Source: Thioploca ingrica
GTDB lineage: Bacteria > Pseudomonadota > Gammaproteobacteria > Beggiatoales > Beggiatoaceae
Length of the DNA: 64,000 nucleotides
Direction: 5' to 3'
NCBI GenBank assembly: GCA_000828835.1
Contig: AP014633.1
Location: forward strand, 2,232,001 to 2,296,000
The first letter of the stretch is position 1, and each line of letters begins with the position of its first letter. A model generated the notes under the pieces. That model made no database searches. It saw only the letters and a list, made by a program, of their open reading frames with translations, and had not been told where the DNA came from. Both the position numbers and the translations under genes were made by a program. Positions 7,722 through 15,263 of this stretch are shown in pieces.

Positions 7722-7736
7722 GTGTTAGGAGAAAAT

Positions 7737-9107
7737 ATGTTTAAATCAATAATGGCCTTTATACTTTTTACTTTATGGTCGGTTGAAACTTATGCTCGGA
7801 TTGATTTAGTCACTTTACCCGTACGAGACCAATTACAATTAACTATTTATAATCCAGCAGATTTGACTTTGGTACGTGAACACAGAACGCTGACTTTAAA
7901 ATCCGGAATCAATCGCCTTGAATTCAGTTGGGCGGAAACTTTAATCGATCCCACTTCGGTGCAGTTGGAAGCACCACAGCATCAAGGGCAAGTGAACTTG
8001 CTAGCAGTGAGTTATTCGCCTAATGTTAAAGACAGTGCTATTTTAATTATTGAATCGCAACTGACTGGCGAAGTCCCGGTAGAAATAAGTTTCTTCACCG
8101 CCGGCATCACTTGGAATGCCTTTTACAATATAACCTTATCAACAGATGAACAAAGCCTGCATTTGCAAAATGAAGTGCGGGTCAATAATCAAAGTGGGGA
8201 AGACTATCTCAATGCTCAAATCCGAGTGGTCGTGGGAAAGGTACAGTTACTCGATGAAATTGCTCGCTTGGCTAAACAAAATTTACCTTATGGTATGCCA
8301 ATAGAACCTCTGCCAGTTGCAGATGAAAAAGGAATCTTAAAAGAGGGCTTAGCAACGGGGGCAAAGTCAGTCAGATCTCTATTCACCGATTCAGAAGGAA
8401 TGGCTCCGAAACGAATTACTAAAGAAGGTCTGTCTGAATATTTTCTTTATACTATTGAGGGAACAGAATCAATCCCTAATGGTTGGGGTAAGCGGTTACT
8501 CGCTTTGGATAAAGTCGATATTCCCGTTCACGTTTTATATCGTTATGATGAACAACGTTACGGAACCGAAACTCAACAGCTCTTATTTTTCAAAAATGAT
8601 CCGCAACATCATTTAGGTGAAACGCCTTTACCGGATGGACAAGTGATGGTTTATCGACAACTCGGAGAAAATCAACATTTAAGTTATGTCGGTCAATTGC
8701 AAACGCCATACATTCCGGTGGGGCAAGCAGTCGAATTCAATTTGGGAACCGCTAAACAAGTAACCGTAGAACCCATCTTAATGGATTATAAAACTGAAAA
8801 CTATTTATTTGATTATCAAGGTCAGATTTCGGGATTTGATCGCATTCAACAATGGCAACTCAAATTAGCAAACTATCGTGATATTCCAGTGGAAATAGAA
8901 ATCTTTCGCCAAGTTGATCATTCTTACTGGAGCGTGACTCATGCGCCGGATTTAGCGGCTCACTATGAAAAAGTAGACCTCGATACGATTAAATACCGGT
9001 TAACTCTACCACCACATACCCAAGAATATTTGCTTCCCTATACCTTGACTTTATTTGAAGGCGAACGTCAACAGAAAAAGGCACTTATTAAAGGCGTGGC
9101 ACCATGA
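7737..9107 (+). CDS. Secreted DUF4139-domain protein (first of tandem pair)
   Basis: A 456-residue protein starting at ATG 7737, with an AGGAGA site 4 nt upstream; an in-frame GTG at 7722 lies upstream of that site and is less likely. The signal peptide is MFKSIMAFILFTLWSVETYA. The body is beta-rich, with motifs such as 'GITWNAFYNITL' and 'NNQSGEDYLNAQIRVVVGK' that are characteristic of DUF4139, the domain found in mucoidy-inhibitor MuiA-like proteins. No catalytic residues are known for the family. The stop overlaps the start of the next gene by 4 nt (ATGA), so the two are translationally coupled. It probably acts in the periplasm or at the envelope. Confidence 0.8.
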   Translation: MFKSIMAFILFTLWSVETYARIDLVTLPVRDQLQLTIYNPADLTLVREHRTLTLKSGINRLEFSWAETLIDPTSVQLEAPQHQGQVNLLAVSYSPNVKDSAILIIESQLTGEVPVEISFFTAGITWNAFYNITLSTDEQSLHLQNEVRVNNQSGEDYLNAQIRVVVGKVQLLDEIARLAKQNLPYGMPIEPLPVADEKGILKEGLATGAKSVRSLFTDSEGMAPKRITKEGLSEYFLYTIEGTESIPNGWGKRLLALDKVDIPVHVLYRYDEQRYGTETQQLLFFKNDPQHHLGETPLPDGQVMVYRQLGENQHLSYVGQLQTPYIPVGQAVEFNLGTAKQVTVEPILMDYKTENYLFDYQGQISGFDRIQQWQLKLANYRDIPVEIEIFRQVDHSYWSVTHAPDLAAHYEKVDLDTIKYRLTLPPHTQEYLLPYTLTLFEGERQQKKALIKGVAP

Positions 9108-10237
9108 AATTAAGTCTATCGGTCACTTATTTACTGAGTTTATTCCTGTTGTTTGCTCAAGTCAGTTGGGCACGAGTCAAATTAGTGGCTTTACCCGAAC
9201 GCGAAGCCACCGTGGTTCGCCTAGATAACCCGAGGGCTACTTTACTGGAGGAAGAACGCTTATTAACTTTACAAAAGGGAATTAATCAAGTGAATTTTTC
9301 TTGGCAAGGGGTAGAAATTGTACCCGATTCGGTCCGTCTAACTGTGTTAGATCCCCCGGATTCAGTCACGGTACTGAATGTAAGTTATCCGCCCAATGAA
9401 CAAGCTTTAATTTGGCAAGTCGTTAGCCCCAATGGTCAACCCGTTCGAGTAAGAATGAGTTATTTACTTAAACAAATTGATCGGTTAATCGCCTATAACG
9501 CCCTAGTTAATAAAGAAGAATCGGCTTTAGATTTAACCGCTTTTGTCGTATTAAGAAATTTCTCCGGTGAAAATTTACCCTTAACCCGCTTTCAACTCGA
9601 TCAGGGTGAAACTTTGGAAAATGAAATCCTCCAGGGTGAAACGAAGCGAATCTCTTTTTTTACCGCTAATCAATTACCGATAAAGAAATATTTTACTTTT
9701 GATGCCGAACAGTTGCCTTGGAATCCGAAACAAGTCAGTGATAATATCAGTATCCCCGTTCATTACGAACTGGAAAATATCGCCGAAAATGGCTTAGGTA
9801 AACAGGCCTTATGGGATGGTAAAATAAGATTGTATGCTGAAGATGGTCATGGCAGTCACCTTTTTTTAGGCGAAGATAATGCCCAATTTACTCCAGTGGG
9901 ACAAACGTTAAAATTAAGGCTCGGTGATAGTCACGATATCGTTATTACTCAAAGAAAAATCAGCGAAAATCGGGTCAATGAACGTCGTGATAAACAAAGA
10001 ACCAAAGTCATTCTCTATGATCTTGAAGCAGCGATGCAAGTCGACATGGAAAATTTTAAAGACCAACCCGCTTGGGTAAGACTTAAAGAACTGATGCCGG
10101 AAGAATGGGAAATGAAAACCAGTTCTCATCCTTATAAACGTGAACGTAATCAGGAAATCATCTTTGACATTACGGTACCCGCCAAAGAAAAAGTGACCGT
10201 GACTTATAATTATATTCAGCGTAATATGCGTCCATAA
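9104..10237 (+). CDS. Secreted DUF4139-like protein (second of tandem pair)
   Basis: A 377-residue paralogue of the preceding gene. Its signal peptide ends near VSWA and is followed by RVKLVALPEREATVVRLDNP, which matches RIDLVTLPVRDQLQLTIYNP of the first protein. Both then have a 'TLxxGINxxxFSW' stretch and end in a similar beta-rich segment. This copy is about 80 residues shorter, mainly because a middle segment corresponding to about residues 180-240 of the first protein is missing or much reduced. The 4-nt overlap with the upstream gene suggests equal expression and possibly a heteromeric complex. Function unknown. Confidence 0.75.
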   Translation: MKLSLSVTYLLSLFLLFAQVSWARVKLVALPEREATVVRLDNPRATLLEEERLLTLQKGINQVNFSWQGVEIVPDSVRLTVLDPPDSVTVLNVSYPPNEQALIWQVVSPNGQPVRVRMSYLLKQIDRLIAYNALVNKEESALDLTAFVVLRNFSGENLPLTRFQLDQGETLENEILQGETKRISFFTANQLPIKKYFTFDAEQLPWNPKQVSDNISIPVHYELENIAENGLGKQALWDGKIRLYAEDGHGSHLFLGEDNAQFTPVGQTLKLRLGDSHDIVITQRKISENRVNERRDKQRTKVILYDLEAAMQVDMENFKDQPAWVRLKELMPEEWEMKTSSHPYKRERNQEIIFDITVPAKEKVTVTYNYIQRNMRP

Positions 10238-12229: not shown

Positions 12230-13138
12230 ATGTGGCAAGCTGAGGTAAGACGTGTCGCTTTAGGTATTCGCCAACGCGTTTTTGAACATACTATCAAAAA
12301 TCAGGGTGGTTATCTCAGTCAAGCTTGTTCCGCAGCGGACTTTTTAGCCACCCTGTATGTCAAAACACTTAATCTTGGACCCAGTATTGCGCCACCCGTT
12401 CCCCGCCCTTTTGCTGGTCCACCCGGCGTAAATAATCCCAACAGCTTTACTGGCGCTGATTATCACGGTGCTAAGCAACCAGAATACGACCGCTTTTTTA
12501 TCAGTCCGGCGCATTACGCCTTGGTTATCTATGCCGCACTCATCGAAACTGGCAGAATGGCACCGGCCGGATTAGATCTTTTCAATCAAGATGGTAGTAG
12601 CGTGGAAATGATCGGTGCCGAACATTCGCCCGGGATGGAAGTCACTACCGGTTCGCTGGCGCAGGGATTGAGTATGGCGGCAGGGGTGGCATTAGCCAGA
12701 AAACTGAAACAAGAGCCTGGAAGAATATGGGTTTTCCTCTCAGATGGCGAATTACAAGAAGGGCAAACTTGGGAAGCTTTCCAAGTGATTCACCATTACG
12801 CCTTGGATAATTTAGCCGTGATTGTCGATGTCAATGGTCAACAATGCGATGGCGCGATGGATTCTGTCTTACTACCGGGTGCCTTTGCTGCTAAACTGAC
12901 TGCTTTTGGCGCACAGGTCGTGGAAGTCGATGGTCACGACATCGAAGCCTTGCAACGGGCAGCGGCCATCAAACCATCACAGCGTGCGCTTGTAATCCTG
13001 GCTAAAACTTGTCCTTATCAAGGCATGGATTACCTGAAAAAACGTTATCCACGTTTGCACTACGTGCGGTTTCGCTCCGCCAAAGAATTCGATGAATTTG
13101 AAGCAGCGATTCGGCAACAACTTTATCACCTCAAGTAA
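12230..13138 (+). CDS. Transketolase, N-terminal (TPP-binding) subunit
   Basis: 302 residues, matching the N-terminal half of transketolase in the split form. The thiamine-pyrophosphate motif is present as SDGELQEGQTWEAF followed by 'VDVNGQQCDG', and the substrate histidine region reads GAEHSPGMEVTTGSLAQGLS. A GGAG site lies 6 nt before ATG. The C-terminal half is encoded 8 bp downstream, so the pair forms one enzyme of alpha2beta2 type that transfers two-carbon ketol units between sugar phosphates. An insertion rich in Pro/Gly (about residues 48-75) lies near the N-terminus. Adjacent to the RuBisCO-like gene it is more likely a pathway-specific transketolase than the housekeeping one. In characterised D-apiose pathways, apulose-4-phosphate transketolase is also split into two subunits. 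Confidence 0.9.
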   Translation: MWQAEVRRVALGIRQRVFEHTIKNQGGYLSQACSAADFLATLYVKTLNLGPSIAPPVPRPFAGPPGVNNPNSFTGADYHGAKQPEYDRFFISPAHYALVIYAALIETGRMAPAGLDLFNQDGSSVEMIGAEHSPGMEVTTGSLAQGLSMAAGVALARKLKQEPGRIWVFLSDGELQEGQTWEAFQVIHHYALDNLAVIVDVNGQQCDGAMDSVLLPGAFAAKLTAFGAQVVEVDGHDIEALQRAAAIKPSQRALVILAKTCPYQGMDYLKKRYPRLHYVRFRSAKEFDEFEAAIRQQLYHLK

Positions 13139-13146
13139 GCAAAACT

Positions 13147-14148
13147 ATGGACTTAGTCAGTAAACCTTATGCGCAGGCTTTCATCGAATTTGCCCGCCAT
13201 AAACCGGAAGTACTATGCATTTCTGCCGATCTCACCAGCTCCTGTGAAATCGATGGTTTTCGCGAGCAGTTTCCCGAACGCTTTTTTTCCATGGGCATGA
13301 CTGAACAACACACGCTCAGTTTCTGTGCCGGTTTGGCTCTGGAAGGTTTTCGGCCTTTCTTTCATACTTTCAGTGTATTTTTGTATCGCCGACCTTACGA
13401 TCAACTGATTAACTCCATTGCTTACTCCAATCGTCAAGTCAGATTAATGGGCTTTCTCCCCGGCATTACCACACCGGGCGGCATTACTCATCAAGCGATT
13501 GAAGATATTGCCATACTACGCAGCGTTCCCAACCTGACTTTACTCGAAACCGGGGATGCCACCGAAGTAGAAACCGTCTTGGAAGTTGCTGATGCTATCG
13601 ATGGTCCAGTTTATGTTAGGGTATTGCGGGGTTTAGTCCCCCGGTTATTCACCACGCCATTTGGTTTCAACCAATTACGAACTTTGAGCCAAGGAAAAGA
13701 CGTGTTGGTATTATCAGCGGGCATCACCACCGAAGAAGCCATGCGCGCTACCCAAGCCCTAACTCAAGCGGGGGTTGGTATCACCCATTTACATGTCTCT
13801 ACTTTGAAACCCTTCGCACGGCAGGCTTTTCTGGAAGCACTTACGGATATTCGTTATGGCGTGGTCACCATAGAAAATCATACCATTATCGGTGGTTTGG
13901 GCAGTATGGTAGCGGAAATTCTCGCTGAAGAAGGTATCGCTAAAAAATTAATTCGTTTAGGACTTCAAGATACTTTTGCTCATGGTGCCAGCCGTCCTTA
14001 TTTGATGAAAAAGTATAGCTTAGATGCCCTGGCGCTAATCCGAGCAATAGAAAAATTACTCCACCACACCACCGGCATCACCGCCAATGAATTACAAGCG
14101 GTGAGATTGGACACGGTTCATAGTGAAGCCAAAGCGGAGGCATTATGA
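13147..14148 (+). CDS. Transketolase, C-terminal (pyrimidine-binding) subunit
   Basis: 333 residues, the complement of the upstream subunit. The Pyr domain is shown by 'FFSMGMTEQHTLSFCAGLALEG', with the conserved Glu of MTEQH that activates TPP, and FLPGITTPGGITHQAIEDIA. The C-terminal domain (about 190-310) has VLVLSAGITTEEAMRA and 'ENHTIIGGLGSMVAEILAEEG'. The overall pattern is transketolase-like; a close reading against 1-deoxyxylulose-5-phosphate synthase or pyruvate dehydrogenase E1-beta would be the alternative, but those have different flanking domains. The TGA stop overlaps the next ATG by 4 nt, coupling it to the RuBisCO-like protein. Confidence 0.9.
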   Translation: MDLVSKPYAQAFIEFARHKPEVLCISADLTSSCEIDGFREQFPERFFSMGMTEQHTLSFCAGLALEGFRPFFHTFSVFLYRRPYDQLINSIAYSNRQVRLMGFLPGITTPGGITHQAIEDIAILRSVPNLTLLETGDATEVETVLEVADAIDGPVYVRVLRGLVPRLFTTPFGFNQLRTLSQGKDVLVLSAGITTEEAMRATQALTQAGVGITHLHVSTLKPFARQAFLEALTDIRYGVVTIENHTIIGGLGSMVAEILAEEGIAKKLIRLGLQDTFAHGASRPYLMKKYSLDALALIRAIEKLLHHTTGITANELQAVRLDTVHSEAKAEAL

Positions 14149-15263
14149 TCGGGGAACGATTTCAGGTGATTTATCATCTCAGTGGAACAGAAGCCGTTGC
14201 CTTGGAAAAAGCGCAAACCATTTGTTTAGAACAGACCGTCGAAGTTGGCCAAGAACTTGTTCCCAATGGATTTATCAAAGAACATATCGTGGGTCGCTTG
14301 GAACAATTTTCTCCGGTGACATCAAACTGTTATGCTGCTACCATCAGCTATGCCGTTGAAACCGCCGCCGGGGAATTAACTCAGTTACTTAACGTCATTT
14401 TTGGCAATACCAGTATCAAGCCGGAAATTCGGGTACAACAATTAATATTAAGTGAAAAATTATTAGCGCAGTTTGGCGGTCCCCGTTTTGGCATCGCTGG
14501 ATTACGCCAACTCATTGGGGTTGCTGAAAAACCACTCCTCTGCACGGCTTTAAAACCGATGGGTAAGTCCGTAATAGAATTAGCCGGATTGGCTTATCAA
14601 TTTGCTTTAGGTGGTGTTGATCTCATCAAAGATGATCACGGCTTAACTAATCAACCGTTTTGTCCCTTCACTGAACGGGTAAAAGCGTGCAGCGAAGCGG
14701 TTCACCGAGCTAATCGGCAAACCGGCAAACATTGCCTTTATGTCCCGAATATCACCGCGCCTTGTCATCAATTACGCGAACGTGCGATTTATGCTCAAGA
14801 AATAGGAGCTGGCGCTTTACTCATTGCCCCGGGTTTGACTGGTTTTGACAGCCTGCGAGCCTTAGCAGCAGATGATGCGATTAGATTACCACTGATTTCA
14901 CATCCCGCTTTCCTAGGCACGATGGTGACTCATCCAGCCAATGGCTTGGCGCATGGGGTTTTATTTGGACAACTCCAGCGGCTAATGGGTGCTGATGCGG
15001 TCATTTATCCCAATTACGGTGGTCGCTTTGGCTTCACTCGTGAAGAATGTCAAAGCATTGCTGCTAGCTGTCGAGAACCCATGGGCCATTATCTCCCCAT
15101 CTTCCCTATGCCTGGCGGTGGTATGAGTTTAGAAAAAATTCCCGATCTATTAAATGAGTATGGTAATGAAGTCGTGCTACTCGTGGGTGGCGCACTTTAC
15201 ACACGTTCTCCTGATATTGTCGACAATGGGCGTTATATTTTGTCATTAGTGGGACGTTCATAA
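14145..15263 (+). CDS. RuBisCO-like protein (form IV, non-carboxylating)
   Basis: 372 residues with the RuBisCO large-chain fold. The segment around Lys137 (CTALKPMGKS) equals the loop with catalytic K175/K177 of plant RuBisCO, but the second Lys is not at its place and the spacing is one residue short. The carbamylated Lys is kept (K162 in IKDDHG) with the two Asp, while Glu204 is replaced by His165. Other catalytic sites differ: HR (294/295) is HP in ISHPAFLG, the loop-6 K334 is Arg in YGGRFGF, and the S379 SGG is GGG. The phosphate-site VGGALY is kept. So it binds a phosphorylated sugar as an enolase, isomerase or decarboxylase, not as a CO2-fixing enzyme. It is translationally coupled to the split transketolase. 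Confidence 0.9.
   Translation: MIGERFQVIYHLSGTEAVALEKAQTICLEQTVEVGQELVPNGFIKEHIVGRLEQFSPVTSNCYAATISYAVETAAGELTQLLNVIFGNTSIKPEIRVQQLILSEKLLAQFGGPRFGIAGLRQLIGVAEKPLLCTALKPMGKSVIELAGLAYQFALGGVDLIKDDHGLTNQPFCPFTERVKACSEAVHRANRQTGKHCLYVPNITAPCHQLRERAIYAQEIGAGALLIAPGLTGFDSLRALAADDAIRLPLISHPAFLGTMVTHPANGLAHGVLFGQLQRLMGADAVIYPNYGGRFGFTREECQSIAASCREPMGHYLPIFPMPGGGMSLEKIPDLLNEYGNEVVLLVGGALYTRSPDIVDNGRYILSLVGRS

Follow-up and report, generated by a model that had tools for sequence, protein, structure and literature searches.

Three adjoining genes of Thioploca ingrica, coding for the two halves of a split transketolase-like enzyme (tktN and tktC) and for a RuBisCO-like protein (RLP) of form IV, were analyzed in a 64,000-nt stretch of contig AP014633.1 (positions 2,232,001 to 2,296,000; below, the window). 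The tktN-tktC-RLP combination is a real, widely conserved module, found in at least one archaeal genome besides many bacteria. Judging by the sequences, it probably takes part in an oxygen-independent salvage of methylthioadenosine (MTA), where the split transketolase would replace a cupin and cleave 1-methylthioxylulose-5-phosphate. The evidence comes from the sequences themselves, in particular the linkage of the genes, their co-occurrence, the alternation of the transketolase with the cupin, the core active site of the RLP, and the altered active site of the transketolase.

Gene organization and conservation of the module

The tktN gene (12230-13138, forward strand) encodes the N-terminal, thiamine-diphosphate (ThDP)-binding half of the split transketolase-like enzyme (302 aa; PF00456, 6e-21), and tktC (13147-14148, same strand) encodes the pyrimidine-binding plus the C-terminal half (333 aa; PF02779 and PF02780). 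The product of the RLP gene (14145-15263, same strand), a 372-aa protein with the KDDHG motif, matches PF00016 at 102.9 bits (cut-off 30.1) and is proposed to be a 5-methylthioribulose-1-phosphate 1,3-isomerase. The distance between tktN and tktC is 8 nt, and tktC and the RLP gene share ATGA, overlapping by 4 nt. This spacing, read from the sequence, confirms an earlier note made on the same DNA, which had also expected the three products to work together; the conservation of the unit, described below, supports this expectation.

Orthologues were searched for in 57 relatives, of which 36 are members of the same family (G000-G035; G000 is the window genome, 4.81 Mb in a single contig, and G001 belongs to the same genus). 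RLP orthologues (62-89% identity) are present in 8 of the 57 genomes, all from the family, and tktC orthologues (73-95% identity, E at most 1e-60) in exactly these 8. Seven of them, all except G021, also have a tktN orthologue, as does G007. Of the RLP-containing family genomes, only G000 and G001 have tktN, tktC, and the RLP gene side by side (in G001, on a contig of 19,332 bases). The tktC gene adjoins the RLP gene in these two genomes and in G011, G018 (about 250 nt between them), G024, and G032, while in G021 and G022 the two are on separate contigs; the distance between tktN and tktC is about 2 kb in G018 and about 150 kb, within one contig, in G011, and G022, G024, and G032 have tktN on contigs other than that of tktC. 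Genes kept together despite such rearrangement argue for a shared task. Beyond the three genes, no conserved neighbours were found in the family, except for those shared with G001 and a few clusters of two or three loci. The lone tktN of G007 (G007:C83:35578-36477, 77% identity), whose genome is 99% complete and has no tktC or RLP orthologue, is a relic or an assembly gap.

Genome contigs were also scanned with an alignment of RLPs, and the best 80 of at least 546 loci were then searched with profiles. The RLP-linked type of tktC is present in 57 of these 80 loci, and both halves lie beside the RLP gene in 48 of them; hence the gene order, a search for which the earlier note had suggested, is not unique to the window genome. 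In 53 loci tktC is at most 1.6 kb from the RLP gene, being upstream in all 53; a few loci differ in the order, e.g. RLP-tktN-tktC in L160. Examples of cultured hosts of the module are Clostridium ljungdahlii, C. drakei, Sporotomaculum, Alkalispirochaeta, and Pseudovibrio.

Moreover, genes of MTA salvage were found near the module. The genes mtnA (methylthioribose-1-phosphate isomerase) and mtnK (methylthioribose kinase) are present in 14 and 12 of the 80 loci, respectively, and one or both of them in 15, all of which contain tktC (15/57 vs. 0/23 other loci, Fisher p 0.004). With one gene per 4 Mb, mtnA near RLP would be expected in about 0.3 loci, compared to the 14 observed. The NCBIfam cut-offs are exceeded by mtnA from L118, L133, L135, L168, and L174, and by mtnK from L133 and L158. 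The order mtnK-mtnA-tktN-tktC-RLP is seen in C. ljungdahlii (L133) and C. drakei (L142), where mtnK is preceded by genes that by eye look like those of a sugar-binding protein, an ATP-binding cassette (ABC) ATPase, and a permease, and likewise in a Lokiarchaeota metagenome-assembled genome (L118) and Anaerosolibacter (L117). In L168, a ribulose-phosphate epimerase gene (TIGR01163, over the cut-off) follows the RLP gene. An LsrF-like thiolase/aldolase gene lies near the module in the same locus (L168, 12042-12830; NF006081 over the cut-off) and, according to clustering, in L135, L146, and L179.

In the window's family, MtnA is encoded in 35 and MtnP in 33 of the 36 genomes, and both in all 8 RLP-containing ones, including the window genome. 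The earlier note, observing no kinase or salvage gene nearby, had argued for a route other than methionine salvage; this argument fails, since mtnA and mtnP lie elsewhere in these eight genomes, and one or both of mtnK and mtnA are close to the module in the 15 loci of other organisms. Six of the 36 family genomes, none of them RLP-containing, have both MtnC and MtnD above the cut-offs, and the other 30 have neither above them. The window genome has no match to either protein. MtnD is without a match in all 8 RLP-containing family genomes, and the one MtnC match there (20.9 bits, G032) is below the cut-off. The mutual exclusion of RLP with transketolase (8 genomes) and MtnC with MtnD (6 genomes) among the 36, with no overlap and p about 0.19, was dropped as evidence. 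In 19 of the 36 genomes (e.g. G002, G003, G009, G010), MtnA and MtnP are encoded, with neither an RLP orthologue nor MtnC/MtnD over the cut-off.

Alternation of the split transketolase with a cupin

As judged from sequence, the split transketolase and the cupin alternate as the partner of the RLP. In five of the 80 loci (L105, L106, L108, L128, L148), a cupin gene lies beside or near the RLP gene, and tktC is found in none of these five. The best PDB matches of the L106 cupin are Rru_A2000 (3jzv, 1e-38) and 3kgz, the former being reported as the 1-methylthioxylulose-5-phosphate sulfurylase of the Rhodospirillum rubrum MTA-isoprenoid shunt (PMC4958253). At E 1e-10, no cupin was found in the 8 RLP-containing family genomes, including the window genome.

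From the 75 loci L105-L179, 50 were taken for a search of their whole genomes, 25 being picked for tktC at the locus and 25 for the lack of a complete module there, a few of the latter (e.g. L156, L176) carrying tktC nearby. TktC of the RLP-linked type was recognized by scores of 534 bits or more, as opposed to 274 or less for other transketolases. The cupin is encoded in 16 of the 20 genomes without RLP-linked tktC and in one of the 30 with it (three of 30, if weak matches are included), so that 29 genomes have only TktC, 16 only the cupin, one has both, and four have neither (Fisher p 1.5e-8). MtnA exceeds the cut-off in 47 of these 50 genomes.

The best RLP tree implies at least ten switches of the partner, four to five of them forced by well-supported branches (some rows being labelled by locus alone). 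In a kinship-aware test with 200 pairings, four and five supported independent pairs yielded 3.5 and 4.0 pairs, respectively, going opposite ways and 0.0 going the same way, with a few pairings in one run having one pair that went the same way.

Some loci show further neighbours. The cupin gene is followed by a MetY gene in L148 (5501-7235) and L189 (5409-7223), and the cupin gene of G066 is near genes resembling, by eye, nitrogenase-like subunits (L190:1773-7991). By eye, the Chloroflexi RLPs of L134, L139, and L161 are accompanied by an FGGY-like kinase and ABC transporters of the ribose type. Their genomes have no RLP-linked tktC and, in the case of L134 and L139, no cupin either; these RLPs possibly have a different substrate.

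Active sites of the RLP and the transketolase

In its core active site, the RLP agrees with a known 5-methylthioribulose-1-phosphate isomerase, RLP1 of Rhodopseudomonas palustris. The best PDB match of the RLP by sequence (9e-80, with the R. rubrum RLP sequence being outside the comparison) is 3qfw, which is also the best fold match of the predicted structure. We take this entry to be RLP1, as opposed to a different R. palustris RLP, in agreement with its KDDHG sequence and with rlp2 having an entry of its own, 2qyg. Residues N88, K137, K162-D163-D164-H165, H253, G293, R294, P323, G325, and G326 show no variation across 63 transketolase-linked RLPs, 16 cupin-linked RLPs, and 3qfw, and no alignment column cleanly splits the transketolase-linked from the cupin-linked RLPs (the lowest overlap of the distributions is 0.43). 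Among the five structure models of the RLP, one is good (81.4), the next one scoring 60.7. RLP1 from R. palustris is reported to convert 5-methylthioribulose-1-phosphate to 1-methylthioxylulose-5-phosphate and 1-methylthioribulose-5-phosphate in the ratio 3:1 (PMC5893883).

Two other members of the form IV RuBisCO superfamily, MtnW and OiaX, were considered as identities of the RLP and rejected, as the NCBIfam scores are far under the cut-offs (185.6 bits vs. 513.6 for MtnW, and 83.7 bits vs. 700 for OiaX, NF042437). This agrees with the earlier note, whose reading called for an RLP outside both clades.

For the transketolase, 13 TktN and 14 TktC sequences of the RLP-linked enzyme were aligned with ordinary split transketolases of four genomes and the ordinary full-length one (663 aa) that the window genome also encodes. 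The RLP-linked enzyme keeps the ThDP motif (SDGE...N), the catalytic Glu53, H115, and R161; H95 is kept in 11 of the 13 sequences, Gln being found in the other two. The SGH motif of ordinary transketolases is replaced by GGY (Y28) in all 13 TktN sequences. The His of the GHP motif is gone, being aligned with Met127, and the next residue is Ile128 in all 13, preceded by Met (12 sequences) or Leu (1). Asp of the EDG motif is replaced by Gly111 (PGG) in all 14 TktC sequences. All three motifs are intact in the ordinary transketolases of the five genomes. In known transketolases, these residues touch the hydroxyl groups of the donor and the acceptor; an enzyme that has lost them would suit a donor lacking the C1 hydroxyl, e.g. 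a methylthio-ketose. The best match of the predicted TktN structure is a split transketolase, 6yak; since the predicted local distance difference test (pLDDT) values of the model are below 50 at positions 125-141, the change in the GHP loop is read from the alignment.

Proposed route and alternative explanations

In the proposed route, MTA would be converted to methylthioribose-1-phosphate either by MtnP or by a nucleosidase and MtnK, and MtnA would then form 5-methylthioribulose-1-phosphate. The RLP would shift the carbonyl group, yielding 1-methylthioxylulose-5-phosphate, like R. palustris RLP1 and the R. rubrum RLP. The split transketolase would act in place of the R. rubrum-type cupin, with ThDP attacking C2 of the ketose, breaking the C2-C3 bond and freeing glyceraldehyde-3-phosphate. 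We infer from the sequence data the substrate of the transketolase, this cleavage and, above all, what becomes of the methylthio-C2 unit. As the first choice for its fate, methanethiol would be lost, leaving acetyl-ThDP and then acetyl-phosphate or acetate, and would be recaptured as methionine by MetY; the second choice is the release of 2-(methylthio)acetaldehyde or the transfer of the methylthio-C2 unit to another aldose. A ThDP enzyme that splits a methylthio-ketose phosphate in this way, with methanethiol expelled and glyceraldehyde-3-phosphate and acetyl-phosphate as products, is a tentative suggestion, possible but doubtful in its full extent. MetY (TIGR01326 over the cut-off) is found in the window genome (C1:1785136-1786392), in 6 of the 8 RLP-containing family genomes, and in 26 of the 30 genomes with and 12 of the 20 without RLP-linked tktC; this distribution is compatible with methanethiol capture, but is not specific. 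The idea of the earlier note that the transketolase receives its ketose from the enolising enzyme is the best reading of the module, and stands together with the conserved unit and the distinction from MtnW and OiaX, while its inference against methionine salvage does not.

Several observations weigh against the proposed route. At the window locus, no mtn gene neighbours the module, and none was seen in the locus DNA of 42 of the 57 loci with tktC; many of the 80 loci are short and many are metagenome-assembly contigs, so that the absence of a gene from a locus tells little. G049, a relative outside the family, encodes an RLP 45% identical to that of the window (C19:117542-118630, L011), and no tktC of the RLP-linked type was found in this genome. 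(The same genome has two further matches to the RLP query.) The identity of the RLP and RLP1 is only 36%, positions N290, Y291, G292, and G348 vary among RLPs, M139 is Gln in 3qfw, and on the RLP tree, rooted with two MtnW rows as the outgroup, 3qfw is on a long branch.

The alternation has its own exceptions, namely the four genomes with neither partner and the one with both. Two more genomes with RLP-linked tktC have weak cupin matches (74.5 and 43.7 bits), whose inclusion changes the p value to 6.6e-7. Seven of the counted cupins are divergent (88-108 bits); two of these, compared with PDB, match the Rru_A2000 group first, with TM1459-type cupins close behind for one, and another one adjoins S-adenosylmethionine synthetase. 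With only cupins of at least 150 bits, the table becomes [[1,29],[9,11]] (p 5e-4). These Fisher p values ignore kinship, and the kinship-aware test gives p 0.125, its four to five supported pairs being too few to decide.

The module could instead serve 5-deoxyribose, formed from 5'-deoxyadenosine of radical S-adenosylmethionine enzymes, with the RLP converting 5-deoxyribulose-1-phosphate to 1-deoxyxylulose-5-phosphate and the transketolase producing glyceraldehyde-3-phosphate and acetaldehyde or an acetyl unit. Homologues of the kinase and the isomerase are reported to serve 5-deoxyribose, the kinase DrdK, similar to MtnK, taking both sugars (PMC6079011), which also speaks against assigning the module to MTA. 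The loss of polar active-site residues fits a 1-deoxy ketose as well. However, the cupin with which the transketolase alternates belongs to the methylthioxylulose-5-phosphate methylsulfurylase family and would have no task in 5-deoxyribose salvage, and we consider this explanation unlikely, although the module may serve both sugars.

It is quite unlikely that the RLP forms, and the transketolase uses, some other ketose phosphate unrelated to MTA. Such a substrate would agree with the lack of mtnA and mtnK in the DNA of 65 of the 80 loci, with sugar ABC transporters, FGGY-like kinases, and DhaK seen by eye in some loci (the DhaK family was checked for L116), and with related RLPs, among them those of Moorella, being described as of unknown function (PMC7325909). 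On the other hand, it leaves aside the linkage to mtnK/mtnA in 15 loci, MtnA over the cut-off in nearly all genomes of the whole-genome search, and the RLP core active site shared with RLP1.

Finally, an ordinary transketolase merely sharing the operon with the RLP and serving the pentose phosphate or Calvin pathway is very improbable: the enzyme has the transketolase fold and family matches, and the window genome also encodes true RuBisCO (C1:3989887-3990813), but ordinary transketolases are present in addition (the full-length one in the window genome, split ones in the four other genomes examined), tktC tracks the RLP exactly in the 57 relatives, and the motif positions are altered in all TktN and TktC sequences aligned.

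Comparison with known systems

The proposed route shares MtnP, MtnA, and the RLP core active-site residues with the MTA-isoprenoid shunt of R. rubrum and R. palustris, which uses a DeepYkr RLP and a cupin methylsulfurylase, and the expected RLP product, 1-methylthioxylulose-5-phosphate, is the same. In contrast to this shunt, the 8 RLP-containing family genomes have the split transketolase in place of the cupin, and the products would be C3 and C2 units instead of 1-deoxyxylulose-5-phosphate (DXP). The dihydroxyacetone phosphate (DHAP) shunt, consisting of MtnA and the class II aldolase Ald2, likewise splits a methylthio-sugar phosphate into triose phosphate and a C2 unit independently of oxygen, but employs an aldolase, whereas the module would employ the RLP and a ThDP enzyme. 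The universal methionine salvage of the MtnW type involves MtnC and MtnD, neither of which has a match in the window genome.

The split transketolase of Carboxydothermus hydrogenoformans (6yaj/6yak) has the same two-gene architecture and fold, and is the closest solved structure by sequence and, for TktN, also by fold; it retains the NSGH, GHP-type, and EDG motifs that the RLP-linked enzyme has lost. Phosphoketolase cleaves xylulose-5-phosphate with ThDP, a leaving group being lost from the C2 unit. The analogy with the module is only mechanistic, the leaving group being water in phosphoketolase and methanethiol in the proposed route, and no phosphoketolase match was found in general Pfam and NCBIfam scans. 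The apulose-4-phosphate transketolase AptA/AptB gave no match in the NCBIfam scan, which may lack a model for it; no support for apiose-type chemistry was found, the sequences of this transketolase not having been compared directly.

The earlier note had supposed the pathway to be possibly undescribed, and no paper on a salvage route with an RLP and a split transketolase was found in the open-access literature, though a subscription paper or a preprint may exist; the word transketolase is absent from the main text of a review on the pathway (PMC6302742). The combination of the RLP with a two-piece transketolase probably serves the recycling of a toxic sulfur sugar.

Other features of the window

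The promoter and terminator scan yielded 6 and 1 sites, respectively, compared to 6.0 and 4.2 in shuffled sequences, and is therefore uninformative. Two adjoining open reading frames occupy positions 7722-10237; the first one matches DUF4139 above the Pfam cut-off, and the second one has no Pfam or NCBIfam match.

Implications

Classical MTA salvage is reported to require oxygen, with oxygen-independent routes having been found only recently (PMC10418091). The module is a concrete, widespread candidate for such salvage, with cultured hosts and a named likely substrate. If the proposed route is true, it would explain what a large group of RuBisCO relatives of form IV does, and add a new type of substrate for the transketolase family. 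If the expulsion of methanethiol is also true, it would make possible a redox-neutral, oxygen-free salvage of methionine with an energy gain, spread over many phyla, several of which are known for anaerobes, and reaching an archaeal genome.

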